The notes: generated by a model from the sequence alone, not told the origin. 8,293 bases of DNA from Candidatus Lithacetigena glycinireducens (GCA_018725485.1 QLUP01000039.1:1-8293); one strand, 5' to 3'; positions 1 through 8,293 are shown, counted from the first letter of the stretch. Program-made: numbers and translations.

Positions 1-1022
1 TTAAATATGTAGTTGAGGAGATCGAAGTTGGGAATATTTGGATAGATTTGTCTGATATGATGCATGTGCCAGATGCTGAAATAACAGGATTTCCTACACA
101 AAAACCAGAGGATCTCTTAGAGCGTATCATCAAAGCCTCCTCTAACGAAGGCGACCTTGTGGCTGATTTCTTCTGTGGTTCAGGGACAACTTTGGCTGTA
201 GCCGAGAAGTTAGGCAGGCGGTGGATTGGCTCTGATTTATCCAAGTTTGCTATTCATACTACTCGCAAACGGCTTTTAGACATCACGAATTGTAAACCTT
301 TTGAGGTCTTAAACCTGGGCAAATATCAGAAGGCAAAACTCAAAGAGAATGGGGTTAGTCGGTATATAGACTTCGTTTTGAAACTTTACCGTGCCGAGCC
401 TATTTCAGGCTATACAACCCTTCATGGTAAGAAAGCAGGTAGAATGGTGCATATCGGGGATGTGGATTCTATTGTGACAGAGAGAGAAATAAGGGAGACG
501 GTTAAAGAATGTGCAGGAACAGGTATAAAATCTGTGGACATATTAGGCTGGGACTTTGAAATGGGGCTTCATGATTTAGTGGATAGAATTGGTGATGAAC
601 ATTCTGTAAAAATTCGGCTGGTGCAGATTCCACGAGAAGCATTAGAGGTCAAAGACGCTGCCAGAGAAGAAATAAAGTTCTTTGACCTGAACTATCTTGA
701 GGTAGAACATAGGGTGAACGGAAAGACCCTGAATATTGCCCTGAAGGACTTTGTTATCTCTAATCCTGAATATCTCCCCGAAGAAGTAAGAGAGAAGGTT
801 AAGAAATTCACTGACTACATTGACTATTGGGCAGTGGATTTTGACTACAAGAACGACACCTTCCACAACATGTGGCAATCCTTCAGGACAAAAAAACATC
901 CAGCCCTTGAAACGAAATACTCTCATCCTTACGAAAAGACTGGGAAATATCAGGTTTTGGTTAAGGTAGTGGATATTTTCGGGAATGATACGAATAAGGT
1001 ATTTGTGCTAAAGGTAGGATAA
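1..1022 (+). CDS. mod: Type III-like DNA methyltransferase (Mod), 5'-partial
   Basis: This is the C-terminal part of an AdoMet-dependent N6-adenine/N4-cytosine DNA methyltransferase, which would protect host DNA from the Res nuclease downstream. The frame is open from base 3 without a stop, so the gene begins outside the window; the TTG at 48 is not a credible start. Counting residues from position 48, a PTQKP segment at about 16-20 is followed by the AdoMet-binding motif I DFFCGSGTT (about 40-48) and an acidic GSDL strand end (about 61-64). Motif I lies downstream of where the catalytic DPPY motif must be, which is the beta-class order used by Type III Mod proteins. DPPY and the target-recognition region are off the left edge. 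The last ~65 residues (WAVDFDY, then a GKYQVLVKVVDIFGNDT stretch) look like a PKD/Ig-like beta domain seen in methyltransferases paired with SF2-helicase nucleases, as I recall. gajA follows after 5 nt. Confident on family; specificity cannot be read. Confidence 0.9.
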   Translation, partial: KYVVEEIEVGNIWIDLSDMMHVPDAEITGFPTQKPEDLLERIIKASSNEGDLVADFFCGSGTTLAVAEKLGRRWIGSDLSKFAIHTTRKRLLDITNCKPFEVLNLGKYQKAKLKENGVSRYIDFVLKLYRAEPISGYTTLHGKKAGRMVHIGDVDSIVTEREIRETVKECAGTGIKSVDILGWDFEMGLHDLVDRIGDEHSVKIRLVQIPREALEVKDAAREEIKFFDLNYLEVEHRVNGKTLNIALKDFVISNPEYLPEEVREKVKKFTDYIDYWAVDFDYKNDTFHNMWQSFRTKKHPALETKYSHPYEKTGKYQVLVKVVDIFGNDTNKVFVLKVG

Positions 1023-1027
1023 ATTAC

Positions 1028-2860
1028 ATGTATATTCACCGAGTTCATATCAGAAATTTTCGTTGTTTGGGTAATTTTGAGATAATCCTTAATCCAGGAG
1101 TTTCTTTATTTGTCGGGGAAAATAACAGCGGTAAATCCACTCTGCTTTATGCAATTGATAAAATCCTCGGACGAAATCCAAGCCAATTTGAATTGGAAGA
1201 TTTTTATGCTCCTACTTCTGGATTCGATCCCAGGACATCCGAGCCTATCGAAATTGATATTGAATTACGGCCGTCCCCTGTGGCCGCTAATCGGTCTGTG
1301 ACTCCTTCCTTTTCAGACCAGTTTATACAAGATTTTACTGGGAAAATTGATACAGACGACAAAGGACAACTTTTTATAGGTTGTGTCAAGGCACGGTATG
1401 ATTCGGCTACTCAGCAAGTACAGCACAGGTACTATTCGATTAACGCTGCTGGAATAGAAAGCCCGTTGACTAATAGGGACAGGTATCGCCTTCGATCTTA
1501 TGTTCCTTTCTATCTTGTCAATGCCTTTCGAGATTCAGATAAGCAACTAAGTCAACGGGGAAGTTTCTGGGGTCGCCTTCTGGAAGCAATTCCTGTGGAT
1601 GCAACGCTTGCTGCAAGAGTTACCGCTTCCCTATCGTTGGTGAATGATGATCTGGTCACTAATACCCCTCGTCTTCAAGAAATCAAAGACAGATTTATGG
1701 AGCTCAAAGATGTGATTGGTCTGGCCGCCGTTCCTGGGTGTGTGCAAATTCATCCAATTCCACCAGAACCCCAGGACTTGCTTAGAAATCTCGATGTCCT
1801 TTTACAAACACGAGGTTCCTCTAATCAATTTCGCTTAAGCCAACATGGTGAAGGAATGCGTAGCTTGGCAGTGCTGACTATTTTTCGGATCTTTGTTCAG
1901 ACCCTTGTCAGAGAAGAAAATGAAAATGATGAAGCAAATCCCATACTTGCCATAGAGGAACCGGAAGCCCACTTGCATCCACATACCCAAAGAGCAGTTG
2001 TTGAGCAATTAGGTCCTCTTGCAGGCCAGGTATTTGTTACAACACATTCCCCTAAAGTGGCAGAACCGTTTGAAATCCAGCGGATTTATCTTTTCCGCAG
2101 GCCTGGACCAGAAGCCGTGCTAAGATATCTGCCAGAAAACCATCCTACCAATCCTGCTCAGTCTTTTCTGACAGAGCCTGTCAAAGTTAAACTTGACAGA
2201 TATCTCAAAAGTGGAGGAGCGGAACTCTTTTTCGCTCGGTGTATTATCTTCTTTGAAGGAGACTCTGAAAGGCTTGCACTGCCGGTATTTGCTAAGGCAC
2301 TTGGAATAAATTTAGACCAATTGGGAATTACATTACTTCCAGTTTTTGGCAAAGACTATGAACCCTATTTACGAATTCTCCACCAAACTGCCTTCAATAT
2401 CCCATGGATTATTCTTTCTGATGCAGAGGGAAATACCTTGAAGGAATTGGTTAGTAAACTTGGCAAGGCCGGCTACGTAACACAGGCTGAAGTTGGTACT
2501 TTATCTGATTCAGGTCAACTTCGGAATGATATTTTATTGCCGAACAACTGTTTCTGCTATGGCGATGGTGAAGATTTTGAGAATCTTCTACTTAAAGCTG
2601 GCTTTGTAACTGAATATCAAGAAGTTATTGAAAAATACGAACTAGGGGCATTTAAGGCATTTTTCGATCAACAGGATAAGCGTGAAAAATATGCCAGTGC
2701 ATCAATGGAGATGAAGATTCATGACTTTGTCAAGACAAGGTCAAAACCATTTTACGCTCGGATGGTTGCTGAAAAAATCGCTGGAACCCCAAATAAGATA
2801 CCAAGTGTAATTAAAGATGCATTGAAAAGAGCAAAGGAATTGGCAGAAAAGGATGATTAA
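1028..2860 (+). CDS. gajA: OLD-like ATP-dependent nuclease with TOPRIM domain, GajA-like
   Basis: A 610-residue ABC-type ATPase fused to a TOPRIM nuclease, the class 2 OLD architecture of Gabija GajA. The N-terminal IRNFRCLGNF strand leads to Walker A GENNSGKST (30-38). The ABC signature is LSQHGEGMRS (270-279), Walker B is ILAIEEPEAHLHP (306-318), and the H-loop is TTHSP (338-342). The TOPRIM part begins with FFEGDSE (408-414), then ILSDAEG (462-468), and carries a basic SKPFYARM segment (572-579) that probably supplies the conserved lysine. The usual DxD appears here as D465-A-E467. GajA of Bacillus cereus is about 578 residues, so length fits. Known GajA is a DNA nickase held off by nucleotides and released when phage activity depletes them; this role is inferred here. 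ATG 1028 has a weak upstream AGGTAGG (1013-1019). The helicase gene starts at the next base after its stop. A lone OLD protein is the alternative, made unlikely by that neighbour. Confidence 0.85.
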   Translation: MYIHRVHIRNFRCLGNFEIILNPGVSLFVGENNSGKSTLLYAIDKILGRNPSQFELEDFYAPTSGFDPRTSEPIEIDIELRPSPVAANRSVTPSFSDQFIQDFTGKIDTDDKGQLFIGCVKARYDSATQQVQHRYYSINAAGIESPLTNRDRYRLRSYVPFYLVNAFRDSDKQLSQRGSFWGRLLEAIPVDATLAARVTASLSLVNDDLVTNTPRLQEIKDRFMELKDVIGLAAVPGCVQIHPIPPEPQDLLRNLDVLLQTRGSSNQFRLSQHGEGMRSLAVLTIFRIFVQTLVREENENDEANPILAIEEPEAHLHPHTQRAVVEQLGPLAGQVFVTTHSPKVAEPFEIQRIYLFRRPGPEAVLRYLPENHPTNPAQSFLTEPVKVKLDRYLKSGGAELFFARCIIFFEGDSERLALPVFAKALGINLDQLGITLLPVFGKDYEPYLRILHQTAFNIPWIILSDAEGNTLKELVSKLGKAGYVTQAEVGTLSDSGQLRNDILLPNNCFCYGDGEDFENLLLKAGFVTEYQEVIEKYELGAFKAFFDQQDKREKYASASMEMKIHDFVKTRSKPFYARMVAEKIAGTPNKIPSVIKDALKRAKELAEKDD

Positions 2861-4801
2861 ATGGCCCAAGAAGATTTAGCAACAATCTCTGCTGGTTTAG
2901 GAATTCCACTGGAGGGTTGCCATCTTGTTCTTTCAGGACCCGGAGGGGGTAAGACAACGCTTCTTGTGAATCGCGTTGCTGCTATTCTAGAGACTTTTCC
3001 AAAAGACCGATTTAGGGTTTTGGGTCTAACTTTCACAAATAAAGCAGCCAGACAGATGGAAGAGCGCCTTGGTAAAGATTATCCTAAACTTTCAGCGATT
3101 GCAGAAGAACGCCTTTTAATGGGGACCTTTCATAGTTTTTGTGGGAAAATTCTAAAATCCTATGGCCACCATTTAAAACTTTCACCAGGTTTTCAAATCA
3201 TAGACACACCAGACTGCAAGGCACTTCTTATTGAGTTACAAGAAAAGGGGGAACTGCCAGAAGGATTGCGTCCTGACAACCTTGTCTATGTATTTTCATC
3301 GCTGAAAAGCCGGGATACCTTCGGTGTTGTAGGTAACCCAGATACAAAACTCTCGCCGGGATTAATGGAAGCATACAAGGTATATCAGCGGGCATTAGAA
3401 GAAATAGGGGGGGTCGACTTTGGAGATCTTATTCTGAAAACTACTCATTTACTTATACAACGTCCAGATATTCAGTCATTTTATCACAAGGCATTCCGTT
3501 ACATCCTGGTAGATGAGTTTCAGGATACAACTCCTGCACAATATGCTTTCCTTAAAGCACTTGTGCCACAAAACAACCCAAATGTATTTGCGGTAGCCGA
3601 TGAAGACCAGCTTATCTATGAATGGAACGAGGCTCGGTTAGAAACTTTAAATCATTTCGTTCAAGATTTTAAAGCCAAACACTATTTCAGCACATTGACC
3701 TATCGTTGTCCTTTAAGAGTGGTAAAGGCTGCTAATGCAGTAATCCAGAACAATCAATATCGTGTTCAAGGAAAACCAGAGATTTTGGCATTACCGGAAA
3801 AGAAAGACACTCCATCAATTTTTCTATTTAAGGCTGGGACATCTGATGGTGAGGCTAACTTTGTAAGTAATAAGATAATTCAATTAAAAGAACAAGGGAT
3901 ATCTCTTTCAGAAATTTGTGTGATGACTCGTCAACATTATCATTTCCTTCATATTGAAAAGGCATTGCAAGATGTAAATATTCCTTCCAAAAGAGCACGG
4001 AATGAAATTCTGTCAACAGATGAAGGCCGTGTAATCCTATCAATTTTAAGATTAGCCATCAGTCCTTTTGATAATTTAAGTCTAAGACGGATACTAACGG
4101 AATTTGCTCCATCCTACTTGGCTCAAAAAGAAGAATGGCTATCACTTGCTGAAGCAACACAGAGTCCGATAGATAGTGTGATCATCAACTTTCTCAAAAA
4201 AGACAAAACTAGCATAGAAAGTGAAGAGGATGAACTCTTAATAGGAGTTATGAGAATTCTAAGCAATGTGCGAGGGTATGCTAGTAATGTAAACAAAGCA
4301 CTTGAGATAGTATCAGAGAAAATCCCTCGACTTTTCGAAAATATTTTCCTGGAAGGGGAGAAAACTGAAGCTTTAACTGAAGTCTTTAAGATCCTGAAAC
4401 GAGTGGCAAGGGATCGTAAAATCTTGACAACTGGTTCTATCAGTGATTTGTTAGACAATCTTGGATTTATTCCTGAGCTAACCGAACCCTCCGTTACTGG
4501 CGATGCTGTATCGTTGTTAACTTGTCACCAAGCAAAAGGGTTAGAGTTCCGCATAGTATTTCTTGTCGCTCTGGAGAAAGGTTTATTTCCTGATTATCGG
4601 AGTGAAAGAGAATCTCGCAAATTGGAAGAGGAAAGGCGTCTATTTTATGTTTCAATAACTAGGACCAAAGAACGTCTTTATTTAACATATTCCTTGCAGA
4701 GACCAGATGCAAGTGGAACTCTGCGATCAAGGGAGGCTTCACGCTTTTTATTAGAAATACCAAACGACTTAGTGACGGTAGTGCCTAATGGCAACAATTG
4801 A
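2861..4801 (+). CDS. gajB: UvrD/PcrA-like superfamily 1A helicase, GajB-like
   Basis: A 646-residue SF1A helicase with a full motif set: Walker A SGPGGGKTT (25-33), Ia LTFTNKAARQM (56-66), Ic GTFHSF (88-93), II VDEFQDT (217-223), III ADEDQLIYEWNEA (246-258), IV TYRCP (280-284), V LLTCHQAKGLEF (552-563) and VI LFYVSITRTKERLYL (594-608). Typical UvrD has NYRS and HSAKG where this has TYRCP and HQAKG. The ATG directly abuts the gajA stop and has AAAAGGA (2847-2853) 7 nt upstream, so the pair is probably translationally coupled. In Gabija, GajB hydrolyses (d)NTPs and ATP on DNA ends, relieving nucleotide inhibition of GajA; that role is inferred from family and context. It is longer than B. cereus GajB (about 494 residues) and lies between that and full UvrD (about 720). 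The 3' end overlaps by 14 nt the ATG of the res-start remnant at 4788. A housekeeping UvrD is unlikely given the partner and length. Confidence 0.85.
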   Translation: MAQEDLATISAGLGIPLEGCHLVLSGPGGGKTTLLVNRVAAILETFPKDRFRVLGLTFTNKAARQMEERLGKDYPKLSAIAEERLLMGTFHSFCGKILKSYGHHLKLSPGFQIIDTPDCKALLIELQEKGELPEGLRPDNLVYVFSSLKSRDTFGVVGNPDTKLSPGLMEAYKVYQRALEEIGGVDFGDLILKTTHLLIQRPDIQSFYHKAFRYILVDEFQDTTPAQYAFLKALVPQNNPNVFAVADEDQLIYEWNEARLETLNHFVQDFKAKHYFSTLTYRCPLRVVKAANAVIQNNQYRVQGKPEILALPEKKDTPSIFLFKAGTSDGEANFVSNKIIQLKEQGISLSEICVMTRQHYHFLHIEKALQDVNIPSKRARNEILSTDEGRVILSILRLAISPFDNLSLRRILTEFAPSYLAQKEEWLSLAEATQSPIDSVIINFLKKDKTSIESEEDELLIGVMRILSNVRGYASNVNKALEIVSEKIPRLFENIFLEGEKTEALTEVFKILKRVARDRKILTTGSISDLLDNLGFIPELTEPSVTGDAVSLLTCHQAKGLEFRIVFLVALEKGLFPDYRSERESRKLEEERRLFYVSITRTKERLYLTYSLQRPDASGTLRSREASRFLLEIPNDLVTVVPNGNN

Positions 4802-4847
4802 CCTTGATATAAAGCTCAAACACGCCCTTCAGACCTGGCGTGAAAGG
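4788..4847 (+). repeat. Diverged direct repeat, copy 1 (res start)
   Basis: By hand alignment without gaps, about 50 of 60 bases match 5493-5552, and several of the differences are synonymous. No similarity extends upstream of the ATG in either copy. The two copies bracket the toxin-antitoxin module, about 705 bp apart start to start. Confidence 0.85.
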
Positions 4848-4850
4848 AGG
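4843..4850 (+). promoter_or_regulatory. Strong Shine-Dalgarno for the antitoxin gene, at the res remnant border
   Basis: AAAGGAGG lies 7 nt before ATG 4858 and is a near-perfect ribosome binding site. It decides the antitoxin start in favour of ATG 4858 over the in-frame GTG at 4840, which would lie upstream of this site. The same bases encode the E-R-R codons of the orphan res start, so the site sits at, or was created at, the join between the two sequences. Confidence 0.75.
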
Positions 4851-4857
4851 TATCAAA

Positions 4858-5082
4858 ATGGAGGCAAAAAGATTTATAAGTAAGGTTTTACCAGATGGAC
4901 ATCTGTCTTTACCAGAGGACACAGCAAAGGATGTGGGGAAGGTTTTTGAGGTAATTCTCATTCCTCTGGAAGAGGCTGAGGTTTATTCCTATGCAGAAAC
5001 TCAGGCAAAAGAGAAAGGCTTTTCAAAACTTACAGAGGAAGATATTGAAAGGATTATCCATGAATCAAGAGGTATTAGGTGA
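4858..5082 (+). CDS. AbrB/MazE-like antitoxin of a PIN-toxin module
   Basis: A 74-residue protein starting MEAKRFISKV. The N-terminal half (ISKVLPDGHLSLPEDTAKDVG, then VFEVILIPLEE) has the short beta-strand pattern with a central 'DGxLxLP' turn of AbrB/MazE-type swapped-hairpin DNA-binding domains. The C-terminal half (FSKLTEEDIERIIHESRG) is an acidic helix of the sort that wraps and blocks a PIN toxin. The expected role is to neutralise the adjacent toxin and, in complex with it, repress its own promoter. The stop overlaps the toxin start by 4 nt (GTGA), the usual coupling for antitoxin-first modules. No operator or dedicated promoter is visible in the preceding ~60 bp, which are res remnant, so it may depend on the upstream operon promoter. 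The exact antitoxin family is uncertain; the partner makes the role likely. Confidence 0.75.
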   Translation: MEAKRFISKVLPDGHLSLPEDTAKDVGKVFEVILIPLEEAEVYSYAETQAKEKGFSKLTEEDIERIIHESRGIR

Positions 5083-5489
5083 AACGAATAGTTCTGGATA
5101 CAAATGTTACTATTTCTGCTTTTTTCTGGGGAGGGTATCCAAGAGCTGTATATGATTTAGTGAAAGAAGGAAAAGTAACATTACTTTCCAGCATAGAAAT
5201 AGAGGCAGAATTCATCAGGGTTTTGTCCTACTCCAAATTCGGATTGACTCCTGCTGAAATCCTTCCCTTAGTTAACAGCCTGAGAAAGTATGTCCATTTT
5301 ATTGAAGTAAAAAGCAAAATTGATGTTGTTAAAGAAGATCCTACAGACAATATCTTTCTTGAATGTGCTCTGGAGGGAAATACTGATTATATTATTTCTG
5401 GGGATCATCATCTCCTTAATATAGGCAATTATAAAGGGATACAGATCATAAGAGCAAAAGATTTTCTAATTAAAGAAGGATTTATTTAA
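5079..5489 (+). CDS. PIN-domain toxin, putative endoribonuclease (COG1569-like)
   Basis: A 136-residue, single PIN-domain protein, the usual length for VapC-like toxins. Candidate metal-binding acidic residues are all present: D7 in the opening VLDTNV strand with N9, E42/E44 in the SIEIEAEF helix, D90 in EDPTDN, and D103 and D109 in DYIISGDHHLL. The IVLDTNV...SGD.HLL pattern is characteristic of the COG1569 'putative toxin-antitoxin component' PIN family. Such proteins are Mg2+-dependent RNases that cleave tRNA, rRNA or mRNA when the antitoxin is degraded; the target here is unknown. The start is GTG at 5079, overlapping the antitoxin stop, with AAGAGGT (5067-5073) 5 nt upstream. The intact res begins 3 nt after its stop. 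The gene looks complete and active-site competent. Confidence 0.87.
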   Translation: MKRIVLDTNVTISAFFWGGYPRAVYDLVKEGKVTLLSSIEIEAEFIRVLSYSKFGLTPAEILPLVNSLRKYVHFIEVKSKIDVVKEDPTDNIFLECALEGNTDYIISGDHHLLNIGNYKGIQIIRAKDFLIKEGFI

Positions 5490-5492
5490 TCA

Positions 5493-5552
5493 ATGGCAAT
5501 AATTGACCTTGATATAAAAATCAAACAAGCCGTCAAGACCTGGCGAGAACGA
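5493..5552 (+). repeat. Diverged direct repeat, copy 2 (start of intact res)
   Basis: Matches 4788-4847 at about 50 of 60 positions. This copy continues into the full res reading frame, whereas copy 1 loses similarity near codon 22. Confidence 0.85.
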
Positions 5553-7970
5553 AACTACGAAGGGGCAAGCCCTGTTACCAAAAGACTTCTTGAGTTCTGG
5601 TTTAAAGAAGAGCATATCCTGACTGATGCCTCACGGTTTGAATTCTGGAAATGCCAGCGAGAGGCAATAGAAGCCCTGATTTACATTTATGAGATATGCA
5701 AATACCACAGCCTTTATGACCTTGCAAGAGGCCTTGGAGTTAGTATCCCGGTTGACCCTACAAAAGACCTCTGGCCCAAATATTGTTTTAAGATGGCAAC
5801 AGGCTCAGGAAAAACTTGGGTGATGACGATGGTAATAGTTTGGCAATATTTTAATAAGATTTTTGGCATAAATAATGGTGTCCGCTACTCCAGCCATTTT
5901 CTACTTCTTGCTCCCAATATTATCGTCTTGGATCGGCTTGAAGAGGCTTTTGGCGATAACAGAGTCTTTAGAGAGTTCCCCTTCATTCCCACTGAGTGGC
6001 AAGCGGACTTTGATTTTCAATTTATTAAACAGAGCGAGGTCATTCCACGAACTGCGAGAGGCATCCTTCACCTGACCAATATCCAGCAACTTTATGAGAG
6101 AGATGTAGAAGGAGCAGTCAACCCTTTGGATGAGGCTCTTGGTCCAAAGCCAAAGCGTGAAGAGGAAGCGATCTACGATTCCTTACGGACAGTGCTTTCA
6201 AGCTATAATGACCTTATGGTCTTAAATGACGAGGCTCATCATGTCCATAGTGATGACCTGGAATGGAACAAGGTCATTGCGCATCTGGATTCAACACTTA
6301 AAGAACGAAATGGCAATGGTTTGATGATGCAATCAGATTTTACTGCAACCCCAAAGGACCTTCAGGGTAACCTTTTTCCACATATCATCTACGACTACCC
6401 TCTTGCAGAAGCTATAAAAGATAAGATTGTAAAGCGTCCTCGTATTGGGGAGATTGAAAATGTCCCCGAGTCTCTGAGTAAGGACTTTGTTAAAAAGAAT
6501 CGCCTCCAGATTGACACAGGCATAGAGATTCTTAAGGAATTTCAAAAGGAGTTCAAAGATACGGGAAAGAAGCCCATCCTTTTTATCATGGCTGATGTGA
6601 CCAGGAATGCAGATAAAGTGGGAGAGTATTTTAAAAGGCATGGTTATGAGGGTAAAGTTCTTGTCATTCACACGGATACCAAAGGCGTCATTACTAAAAA
6701 AGACCTTGAGAAGGCAAGAAAAGCAGCCAGAGAGATTGACAGCCCTGAAAACCCTTATGAGATTATCGTAAGTGTAATGATGCTCAAGGAAGGGTGGGAT
6801 GTAAGGAATGTCTGTGTGATTGTTCCACTGAGGGCTTTTGATTCACCAGTTTTGCCTGAACAAACATTAGGGAGAGGTTTACGAAGGATAGCCCCTCAGG
6901 ATGACACATGGGAGGAAAAGCTTATTGTTATTGACCATCCACGATTCCGCCAGCTCTGGCAGGCAGAGATTGCTAAAGGGGAATTGATTGTTGACTTTAC
7001 AACTGCAAAGAGAGCTTATGAACCGAGCAACCTTGTAATGGTTAACCCAGAGAAAATTCAATTTGATATAGAAATCCCTGTTGTAGAGGGAGGACTTACC
7101 CGGACAGTGCCTAATCTAACAGAACTGGATATAACACGACTTCCTGCAAGACCTTTTAAATTTACAGAGATTAAACTACCAAAGGTAAGATACAGGGAGA
7201 GGGACTTAATAGAGCAGAAGATTGTAAGAGAAAAGATTCTTGCCTTTGATTACACGGAGAATTTCTCTCTCTACCTTTCTTATATCTGTAAAGCTATTAC
7301 TTCCAAAACAGGCGCATCAAGTATCTTTGTAGAACTTGTACCAAAAGTAAAGGAGTATATAGAAAATTACCTTTTTGACGAGAAGGTGGATGGTGAGAAG
7401 CTGGATGTTACGAAGAAGCTTAACTATATCCCAATTCGGGAGAAGTTGGTAGAAATTTTCTCAAAAGAAATCAATACTCTTTCCAGAAAAGAAGAAACTG
7501 TTACTCTTCAGAGATACTTCAAGCTAAGTGAAACACAACCCCTTCATACCTCTGAACCGGTTACAAAAGTAAGAAAAACGGTTTTTGAAGCCTTACCGTA
7601 TTCAAGGCGTAGTGTTTTTGAAAAGGAATTTATGAACTATCTGGATGAAAAGGATGATGTGAAGGCATTTACTAAAGGTCTTCCCAGACACCCCCTTCAT
7701 ATCCCTTACTACAATCAGGAAGGATATTTACGATACTATCTACCTGATTTTGTCGTTAAGGAAGAAAGTGCAATGTATCTTGTAGAAACCAAAGGAATGG
7801 AAGGAGCAGAGGTGCCTATAAAGGATAAAGAGACTTTGCGATGGTGTGAAAATGTGCAGAAATTATCTGGAAAACACTGGAAATATCTGAAGGTGAAACC
7901 ACAAGACCTCGAGACTTATAGATCTCATGGTTTTAGAACCTTGGCTGCAGGGACCGAGATAAGAAGGTAG
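5493..7970 (+). CDS. res: Type III-like restriction subunit Res: SF2 helicase plus PD-(D/E)XK nuclease
   Basis: An 825-residue restriction subunit that should act with the Mod protein to translocate on and cut unmodified DNA. Helicase motifs are in order: Q-like CQREAIEAL (54-62), Walker A ATGSGKT (102-108), DEAH box NDEAHH (245-250), motif III SDFTATP (281-287), V SVMMLKEGWDVRNV (427-440) and VI QTLGRGLRR (457-465). The C-terminal nuclease fits the PD-(D/E)XK fold: E712 in FEKEF, P751-D752 in YLPDFVV, and E765-T766-K767 in LVETKG. All catalytic positions seem intact. The ATG has AGAAGGA (5474-5480), a longish 12 nt upstream, so translation may be coupled to the toxin stop 3 nt before. Its first 22 codons are duplicated at 4788. 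It belongs with mod, now some 4.5 kb upstream. The Res label rests on domain order and partner; sequence specificity comes from Mod and is not visible here. Confidence 0.9.
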   Translation: MAIIDLDIKIKQAVKTWRERNYEGASPVTKRLLEFWFKEEHILTDASRFEFWKCQREAIEALIYIYEICKYHSLYDLARGLGVSIPVDPTKDLWPKYCFKMATGSGKTWVMTMVIVWQYFNKIFGINNGVRYSSHFLLLAPNIIVLDRLEEAFGDNRVFREFPFIPTEWQADFDFQFIKQSEVIPRTARGILHLTNIQQLYERDVEGAVNPLDEALGPKPKREEEAIYDSLRTVLSSYNDLMVLNDEAHHVHSDDLEWNKVIAHLDSTLKERNGNGLMMQSDFTATPKDLQGNLFPHIIYDYPLAEAIKDKIVKRPRIGEIENVPESLSKDFVKKNRLQIDTGIEILKEFQKEFKDTGKKPILFIMADVTRNADKVGEYFKRHGYEGKVLVIHTDTKGVITKKDLEKARKAAREIDSPENPYEIIVSVMMLKEGWDVRNVCVIVPLRAFDSPVLPEQTLGRGLRRIAPQDDTWEEKLIVIDHPRFRQLWQAEIAKGELIVDFTTAKRAYEPSNLVMVNPEKIQFDIEIPVVEGGLTRTVPNLTELDITRLPARPFKFTEIKLPKVRYRERDLIEQKIVREKILAFDYTENFSLYLSYICKAITSKTGASSIFVELVPKVKEYIENYLFDEKVDGEKLDVTKKLNYIPIREKLVEIFSKEINTLSRKEETVTLQRYFKLSETQPLHTSEPVTKVRKTVFEALPYSRRSVFEKEFMNYLDEKDDVKAFTKGLPRHPLHIPYYNQEGYLRYYLPDFVVKEESAMYLVETKGMEGAEVPIKDKETLRWCENVQKLSGKHWKYLKVKPQDLETYRSHGFRTLAAGTEIRR

Positions 7971-8041
7971 CACGCAAAAAGACAAAAGAGCTTTTAGAAA
8001 AAGCAAAAAGGAAAGTTGAGGAGGCAATAGAGGGGAAATAG
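7937..8041 (+). other. Lysine-rich open frame without a start codon after res
   Basis: The bases after the res stop hold no complete gene. In one frame, different from res, an open stretch from 7937 to the TAG at 8039-8041 ends in a very basic, helix-like tail (KKVARKKTKELLEKAKRKVE, then EAIEGK). There is no ATG, GTG or TTG in this frame before the tail, and the stretch overlaps the last codons of res. It may be the tail of a lost gene joined at the res 3' end, or the natural end of Res shifted out of frame by one indel. No hairpin terminator is visible in 7971-8042. Confidence 0.35.
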
Positions 8042-8042
8042 T

Positions 8043-8293
8043 CAACTACAACACCTAATAACAGTCTGGTGGTTTAAGAATGGAGACAGAGATGCAACAT
8101 TTTTTGCTGTTCCGTATGAAAACGGAGAACAGAAACCATTTTATGTTGATTTTATCATTAAGTTGAAAGATGGAAGAATTGGATTGCTTGATACCAAATC
8201 CGGCTTCACCCAAAAACTTGCTGGTCCAAAAATTGAAGGCTTGCACAGATATATCCAGAACGAAAATAAAAAAGGCAAAAACCTTTTTGGTGG
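8043..8293 (+). pseudogene. 5'-truncated C-terminal nuclease part of a second Res-like protein
   Basis: The frame, open from 8031 after a TAG at 8028-8030, encodes a protein segment recognisable from about 8043 to the right edge: VWWFKNGDRDATFFAVPYEN, then FYVDFIIKLKDGRIGLLDTKSG, then GLHRYIQNENKKGKNLFGG. VDF followed by LLDTKSG matches the D...(D/E)xK core of a PD-(D/E)XK nuclease at the end of Type III Res-like helicases. No in-frame ATG or GTG precedes it and no helicase motifs lie upstream, so its N-terminal part is missing. It is not a copy of the Res C-terminus at 7740-7810, which reads YLPDFVV...LVETKG, so it comes from a different Res subfamily. It lies in the same frame as res but several stops separate them. 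The downstream end is outside the window. Pseudogene status is inferred from the missing start. Confidence 0.7.

Follow-up and report, generated by a model that had tools for sequence, protein, structure and literature searches.

The stretch of DNA analyzed here, to which we refer as the window, is the complete contig C138 (8293 bases) of a draft genome of 1.24 Mb that is 83% complete. It is a single MAG contig on which there are no flanking host genes. Within 8 kb, and all in the same orientation, it encodes mod and res, the core genes of a restriction-modification (RM) system similar to type III, and between them a Gabija-type pair (gajA and gajB) and a toxin-antitoxin (TA) pair with a PIN-domain toxin:

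3-1022, plus strand: mod, type III-like N6/N4 DNA methyltransferase, C-terminal 339 aa
1028-2860, plus strand: gajA, OLD-family ATPase plus Toprim nuclease (PADLOC GajA, PDLC00067)
2861-4801, plus strand: gajB, UvrD/PcrA-like SF1 helicase (PADLOC GajB, PDLC00114)
4788-4862, plus strand: relic of a res 5' end, ~20-25 codons, in a frame different from that of gajB
4858-5082, plus strand: putative antitoxin of 74 aa, so named from its placement and a 4-nt overlap with the PIN gene
5079-5489, plus strand: PIN-domain toxin with a GTG start (TIGR00305, PIN_3)
5493-7970, plus strand: res, intact, type III-like SF2 helicase plus PD-(D/E)xK nuclease
~8050-8293, plus strand: C-terminal remnant of another Res-like protein, without a start (frame reading and a weak BPTD_3080 match)

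The ORFs and their family matches agree with the co-oriented order mod-gajA-gajB-PIN TA-res that an earlier note had drawn from this DNA, with the qualification that mod is truncated at its 5' end. That note had also given the intergenic distances as 5, 0, -14, -4 and 3 nt, and all of these stand except for the overlap of 14 nt. The ORF at 4788, which had been taken for the antitoxin gene, is the res relic, and the ATG of the antitoxin gene lies at 4858, 56 nt past the stop codon of gajB. The co-orientation and tight spacing of the genes suggest that they might be expressed together from upstream of mod; internal promoter-like and terminator-like sites occurred in the window at chance frequency, and the promoter scan is uninformative.

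The mod product matches Pfam N6_N4_Mtase (3.4e-24) and, over positions 279-613 of 616, the PADLOC MTase_III model (239 bits). Its N-terminal ~260-280 residues are missing from the window because the contig begins inside the gene. The motif DFFCGSG is present, and the catalytic half lies beyond the contig; in the related loci L289 and L290 the catalytic motif reads IDPPF. A search of the same bin for the upstream extension of mod found only a different type III-like mod gene, which is located on the minus strand of contig C10 (G000:C10:384-1220). The res product matches ResIII above the gathering score (2.9e-16) as well as the REase_III family, and scores 272 bits against the BPTD_3080 model, under the cut-off of 800 for that family; its motifs GSGKT, DEAH and PD...ETK are kept across 11 relatives. 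The divergence of mod and that of res are strongly correlated (Mantel r 0.86, 0 of 999 permutations, 83 loci), and we therefore regard the two as true partners.

Type III RM systems attack unmethylated DNA. The pair in the window resembles those of the EcoP15I type in its matches to the MTase_III and REase_III models, in the combination of a helicase with a PD-(D/E)xK nuclease, and in the placement of mod upstream of a res gene with which it co-evolves. It differs from them in the 4.5 kb of cargo between the two genes and in a Res protein that is a BPTD_3080-like relative scoring under the family cut-off. The mod and res genes of EcoP15I are transcribed together, with a delay in the translation of res (PMC12707154); we speculate that the spacing of the two genes might impose a comparable order in the window.

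Two further stretches lie beyond the stop codon of res. Directly past it, at 7971-8041, there is an open frame (RKKTKELLEKAKRKVEEAIEGK) that may once have extended the C-terminus of res, before a frameshift removed it. The remnant at ~8050-8293 reads WWFKNGDRDATFFAVPYENGEQKPFYVDFIIKLKDGRIGLLDTKSGFT and runs off the contig. It is weakly similar to the BPTD_3080 C-terminus (E 0.016), matches the res product of L067 at 43% over 37 aa, and is probably a leftover of another restriction gene. We also considered this 3' fragment as the remainder of the gene from which the res relic came, and found this unsupported, the C-terminal type being unlike that of the window res.

The GajA protein matches the PADLOC model PDLC00067 with 320 bits over positions 2-604 of 604, also matches AAA_15 and OLD-like_TOPRIM, and carries a Walker A motif together with EEPEAH, EGDSE and DAE. 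In its Toprim site, EGDSE (at 410) and FGKD are present, whereas the third motif, D465-A-E467, has the form DxE instead of the published DxD. GajB matches PDLC00114 (375 bits) and UvrD-helicase (4.3e-59) and has Walker A and DEFQD motifs; both family matches are full-length and the genes adjoin with a gap of 0 nt. The pair is thus like Gabija (a class 2 OLD nuclease with a UvrD-like helicase) in consisting of two adjacent genes with Walker, Toprim and DEXQD motifs. It is unlike Gabija in that GajA is ~28-31% identical to the nearest GajA found, in its metal motif, in a GajB that is longer and nearer to PcrA than that of B. cereus, and in being embedded in an RM operon. The composition of gajAB (0.67-0.70, as compared to a 5% limit of 0.71 for host fragments) is suggestive of atypical DNA, and no more than suggestive.

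The ORF that begins with the ATG at 4788 has 32 codons (MATIDLDIKLKHALQTWRERRYQNG) and is read in a different frame from the antitoxin gene. Its first ~25 codons correspond to a truncated start of res (MATIDLDIKLKHALQTWRER in the relic vs MAIIDLDIKIKQAVKTWRER in res), with a 62% amino acid match to res residues 1-26, and a search with res matched the window at 4788-4865. At the DNA level, 49 of 58 nt are identical between relic and res, as compared to 30 of 58 at the next best site in the window, and the two share a 15-mer that would not be expected by chance. The last codons and the stop codon of gajB (AATGGCAACAATTGA) fall inside the relic, and where the homology to res stops, the antitoxin ORF has a ribosome-binding site of its own (AAAGGAGG). 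The PIN protein scores 62 bits against TIGR00305 (cut-off 29) and matches PIN_3 (4.1e-16), and it is encoded, as in type II TA systems, by a gene that a small upstream gene overlaps. The 74-aa product of the small gene fits no recognized antitoxin family (no match in Pfam, PADLOC or NCBIfam), and its designation as an antitoxin is a putative one, based on the -4 overlap.

To place this arrangement among its relatives, we collected ~110 relatives of res with their surrounding DNA. The interval between mod and res could be measured in 93 loci (a few of them duplicates of each other), and was scored as carrying cargo if it held at least one co-oriented ORF of at least 100 aa. By this measure mod and res are adjacent in 57 loci, separated by cargo in 33 and by a long gap without an ORF in 3, and the cargo state changes at least 16 times on the res tree. 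The notion that mod and res are normally adjacent is thus correct for the majority, and needs to be qualified by the third or so of the relatives that carry something in this place, which also makes the nesting in the window unexceptional in kind. The further proposal, that the arrangement is tighter than mere co-location in a defense island, is supported by the correlated divergence of mod and res and by the recurrence of cargo at exactly this position in many lineages. Defense genes between the RM core genes, at the same position in other lineages, are indeed what was found, and the suggestion of a single operon unique to the source genome fails as a general statement.

The cargo of this slot includes Fic, RhuM-Fic, Bro-N/DinD, DUF4145, a PIN-like protein, Schlafen AlbA, DUF3800, Uma2, IS200-like transposases (L107 and L153), IetA/IetS, metallo-beta-lactamase (MBL)-fold pairs of the PDC-M48 type and a HEPN-like relative of PDC-M05, with the PDC-M05 and PDC-M48 type genes occurring in L083 and L063. 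Three cargo proteins, of 245 aa (L084), 184 aa (L083) and 263 aa (L149), gave no confident family match in the libraries searched. Next to the two MBL-fold genes of L063 there is a gene for a membrane-like cargo protein (L063:7981-8595) with a weak match (E 0.005) to Csx27, a type VI-B CRISPR accessory. Other variations in the operon family affect the core genes themselves. The mod gene is split into two ORFs in L093:1632-4463, L293:3211-5739 and L095:8476-9944, and a nucleotidyltransferase/HEPN-like gene pair lies between the halves in L093 and L293, representing a second nesting position; the order is reversed, with res upstream of mod, in L071, L128 and L130, with another gene between them in L071.

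The closest relatives of the window (res 80-93% identical in amino acid sequence, mod 83-89% identical) all have cargo, and of different kinds. The window holds Gabija with a TA pair; IetA and IetS (322 and 492 bits) occupy the slot in L082 (Desulfobacterales), and TIGR04255-X-HEPN genes do so in L083 (Thermodesulfovibrionales) and in L289 and L290 of the same phylum. A second clade (mod 76%, res 82%) has an MBL pair in L063 as opposed to DUF3800 in L085, and a third has IetAS in L093, TIGR04255-X-HEPN in L064 and nothing in L095 (res ~74% identical between L064 and L093). The nearest relative of all, L289 (res 93% identical at the protein level), has the same succession of res relic, PIN TA pair and res. 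Read as its reverse complement, it contains:

6659-8437: mod
8439-9179: TIGR04255 gene
9179-9703: X
9700-10059: HEPN gene
from 10063: res 5' relic (MAVIDLDQKIKQAVQTWRERNYEGA)
10188-10367: antitoxin gene
to 10797: PIN gene
10808-13303: intact res

The relic is limited to these two loci, where 15-16 of 20 residues match; all others among the ~150 loci scanned have 9 of 20 or fewer. The upstream cargo differs between the two, their PIN proteins are 27% identical, and no similarity was detected when their antitoxins were compared. Within their res genes, identity is ~78-89% in the first ~600 nt, rises to 96-99% in the next ~1.2 kb and drops again toward the 3' end; the two blocks differ with a Fisher p of ~3e-28, as calculated from rounded identities. 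The res genes of L083 and L290 show a similar mosaic pattern. Such mosaics make homologous exchange among the operons of this clade likely, and could in part be assembly effects, the genomes being drafts.

The earlier note had made much depend on finding mod-gajA-gajB-(TA)-res in other genomes. The exact order turned up in a single assembly, with L142 as a partial second case; this comes close to the single-assembly outcome that the note had named as speaking against it. In L142 (Armatimonadota), the contig edge falls within a GajB-like gene, of which 74 residues match PDLC00132 with 122.6 bits, and the C-terminal end of this gene lies 6 nt before a related res ORF. No other res locus that was checked has GajB-like sequence immediately ahead of res, and L142 places the gajB-res order in a second lineage. 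GajA searches of 98 relatives, 201 genomes of the L142 phylum and viral contigs found OLD/GajA loci, and none of the best of these, when their flanks were checked, has gajAB between mod and res. In L081 and L214, GajA-like genes occur only downstream of mod-res; the one in L214 (L214:5146-5673, on G196:C86) lies directly 3' of mod and res, which adjoin each other in that locus. In a plasmid collection the best matches were distant, ~30% for GajA and 33% for res, and nothing matched the 3' fragment.

On balance, we consider it fairly probable that the window represents a type III-like RM operon in which the mod-res interval is a slot for exchangeable cargo, filled here by a Gabija-type pair and a PIN TA pair. 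New cargo would most likely enter, or take the place of old, by homologous recombination in the conserved sequences of mod and res, as the mosaics suggest, and the duplicated res 5' end would be a footprint of such an event. The PIN TA pair lies between this partial duplicate and the intact res. Mod and Res would then provide a first layer of defense, and Gabija a second layer of attack on DNA that might cover phages whose proteins defeat restriction. Gabija is reported to be activated by the anti-restriction protein Ocr (PMC12255303), or to be licensed by antagonists of RecBCD and to respond to DNA ends lacking RecBCD (PMC12407980). The TA pair may be a last-resort layer or a stabilizer of the operon, and all of these genes would share transcription from upstream of mod. 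A more far-reaching proposal, which we offer tentatively, is that the interval is a dedicated cassette slot of this RM lineage. Homologous recombination would exchange Gabija, IetAS, TIGR04255-HEPN, MBL pairs and TA pairs in it, short res 5' repeats would act as landing and exit points, and the operon would spread across phyla as a changeable, multi-layered immunity unit.

Ordinary clustering in defense islands, in which unrelated modules happen to insert where an intergenic region tolerates them and have no connection in function or regulation, would account for the great diversity of the cargo, which extends to transposases and ORFs without a family, and for its absence from most relatives. 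We nevertheless think this explanation rather unlikely, as the cargo lies between partner genes rather than beside them and is co-oriented with them, junctions with mod in the closest loci are short gaps or overlaps, complete two-gene defense systems occupy the slot, and mod and res remain a co-evolving pair around it. The cargo might instead be guarded, with a Mod-Res complex physically restraining Gabija or the TA pair until inhibition of the complex by a phage sets them free. PrrC in EcoprrI provides a precedent for such an arrangement (PMC3710099, PMC12707154), as does, in more general terms, the hypothesis of a coupling between immunity and suicide (PMC3506569). It is improbable here, however, because proteins of unrelated folds share the slot and are unlikely all to have a specific interface with Mod-Res, and because Gabija is autonomous elsewhere and the TA pair has a putative antitoxin of its own.

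The assignment of the contig to its host is a separate matter, and is doubtful because the tetranucleotide composition of the window fits Nitrospirota better than its own bin: it correlates at 0.85 and 0.84 with two genomes of the L083 phylum group and at 0.77 with the bin, to whose profile other long contigs of the same bin correlate at 0.80-0.94. Horizontal transfer and misbinning are both possible causes. An artifact of assembly or binning, through the joining of different loci at a junction in this single contig without host flanks or through the origin of the contig in an organism other than that of the bin (for which the composition and the 93% identity of res to a copy in the L083 group might be cited), is improbable as an explanation of the arrangement, since composition bears on the host and not on gene order, horizontal transfer accounts for it equally well, the ORFs and tight junctions are intact, and the junction of relic, TA pair and res recurs in the separate assembly of L289.

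Effectors and complete systems are already known to be embedded in RM operons. PrrC and PARIS act as guardians of RM systems (PMC12707154), and HEPN and other toxins are embedded in RM systems of types I and III (PMC3506569, PMC3710099). In the RptR island of EPEC (PMC12255303), a DarTG2 TA pair lies between hsdS and hsdR, and thus, as in the window, between specificity and restriction genes; that island differs in its type I RM system, in having no Gabija and, as far as its description goes, no res 5' repeat. TgvAB of Vibrio VPI-2 is a complete defense system inside a type I RM operon (PMC11411939), and the guilt-by-embedding candidates of Payne et al. 2024 (doi 10.1101/2024.01.29.577857, as cited in PMC12988326) are likewise complete systems inside another defense operon; the PDC-M05 and PDC-M48 type genes in L083 and L063 are a further point of similarity. 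The family of the window differs from both in that its slot belongs to a type III-like system and holds different whole known systems in closely related loci. PrrC in EcoprrI, and RloC with its hsdR relic (PMC2610378), are similar to the window in having a second-line effector in an RM locus and, next to that effector, what is left of a restriction gene, and are unlike it in being single-gene tRNases associated with type I RM; the hsdR relic, moreover, is a C-terminal part and not a repeated 5' end. Our literature search, the coverage of which was incomplete, found no paper that places Gabija or IetAS in a mod-res interval, or that describes res 5' repeats beside cargo. What the window and its relatives add to these known systems is a set of closely related loci that share mod and res and differ in the complete systems between them, together with a res 5' relic that marks the point of insertion. 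They offer a tractable case in which to ask how the layers of immunity come together and are exchanged, and the mod-res gap, with its cargo proteins in L084, L083 and L149, is a place in which to seek new defense genes.
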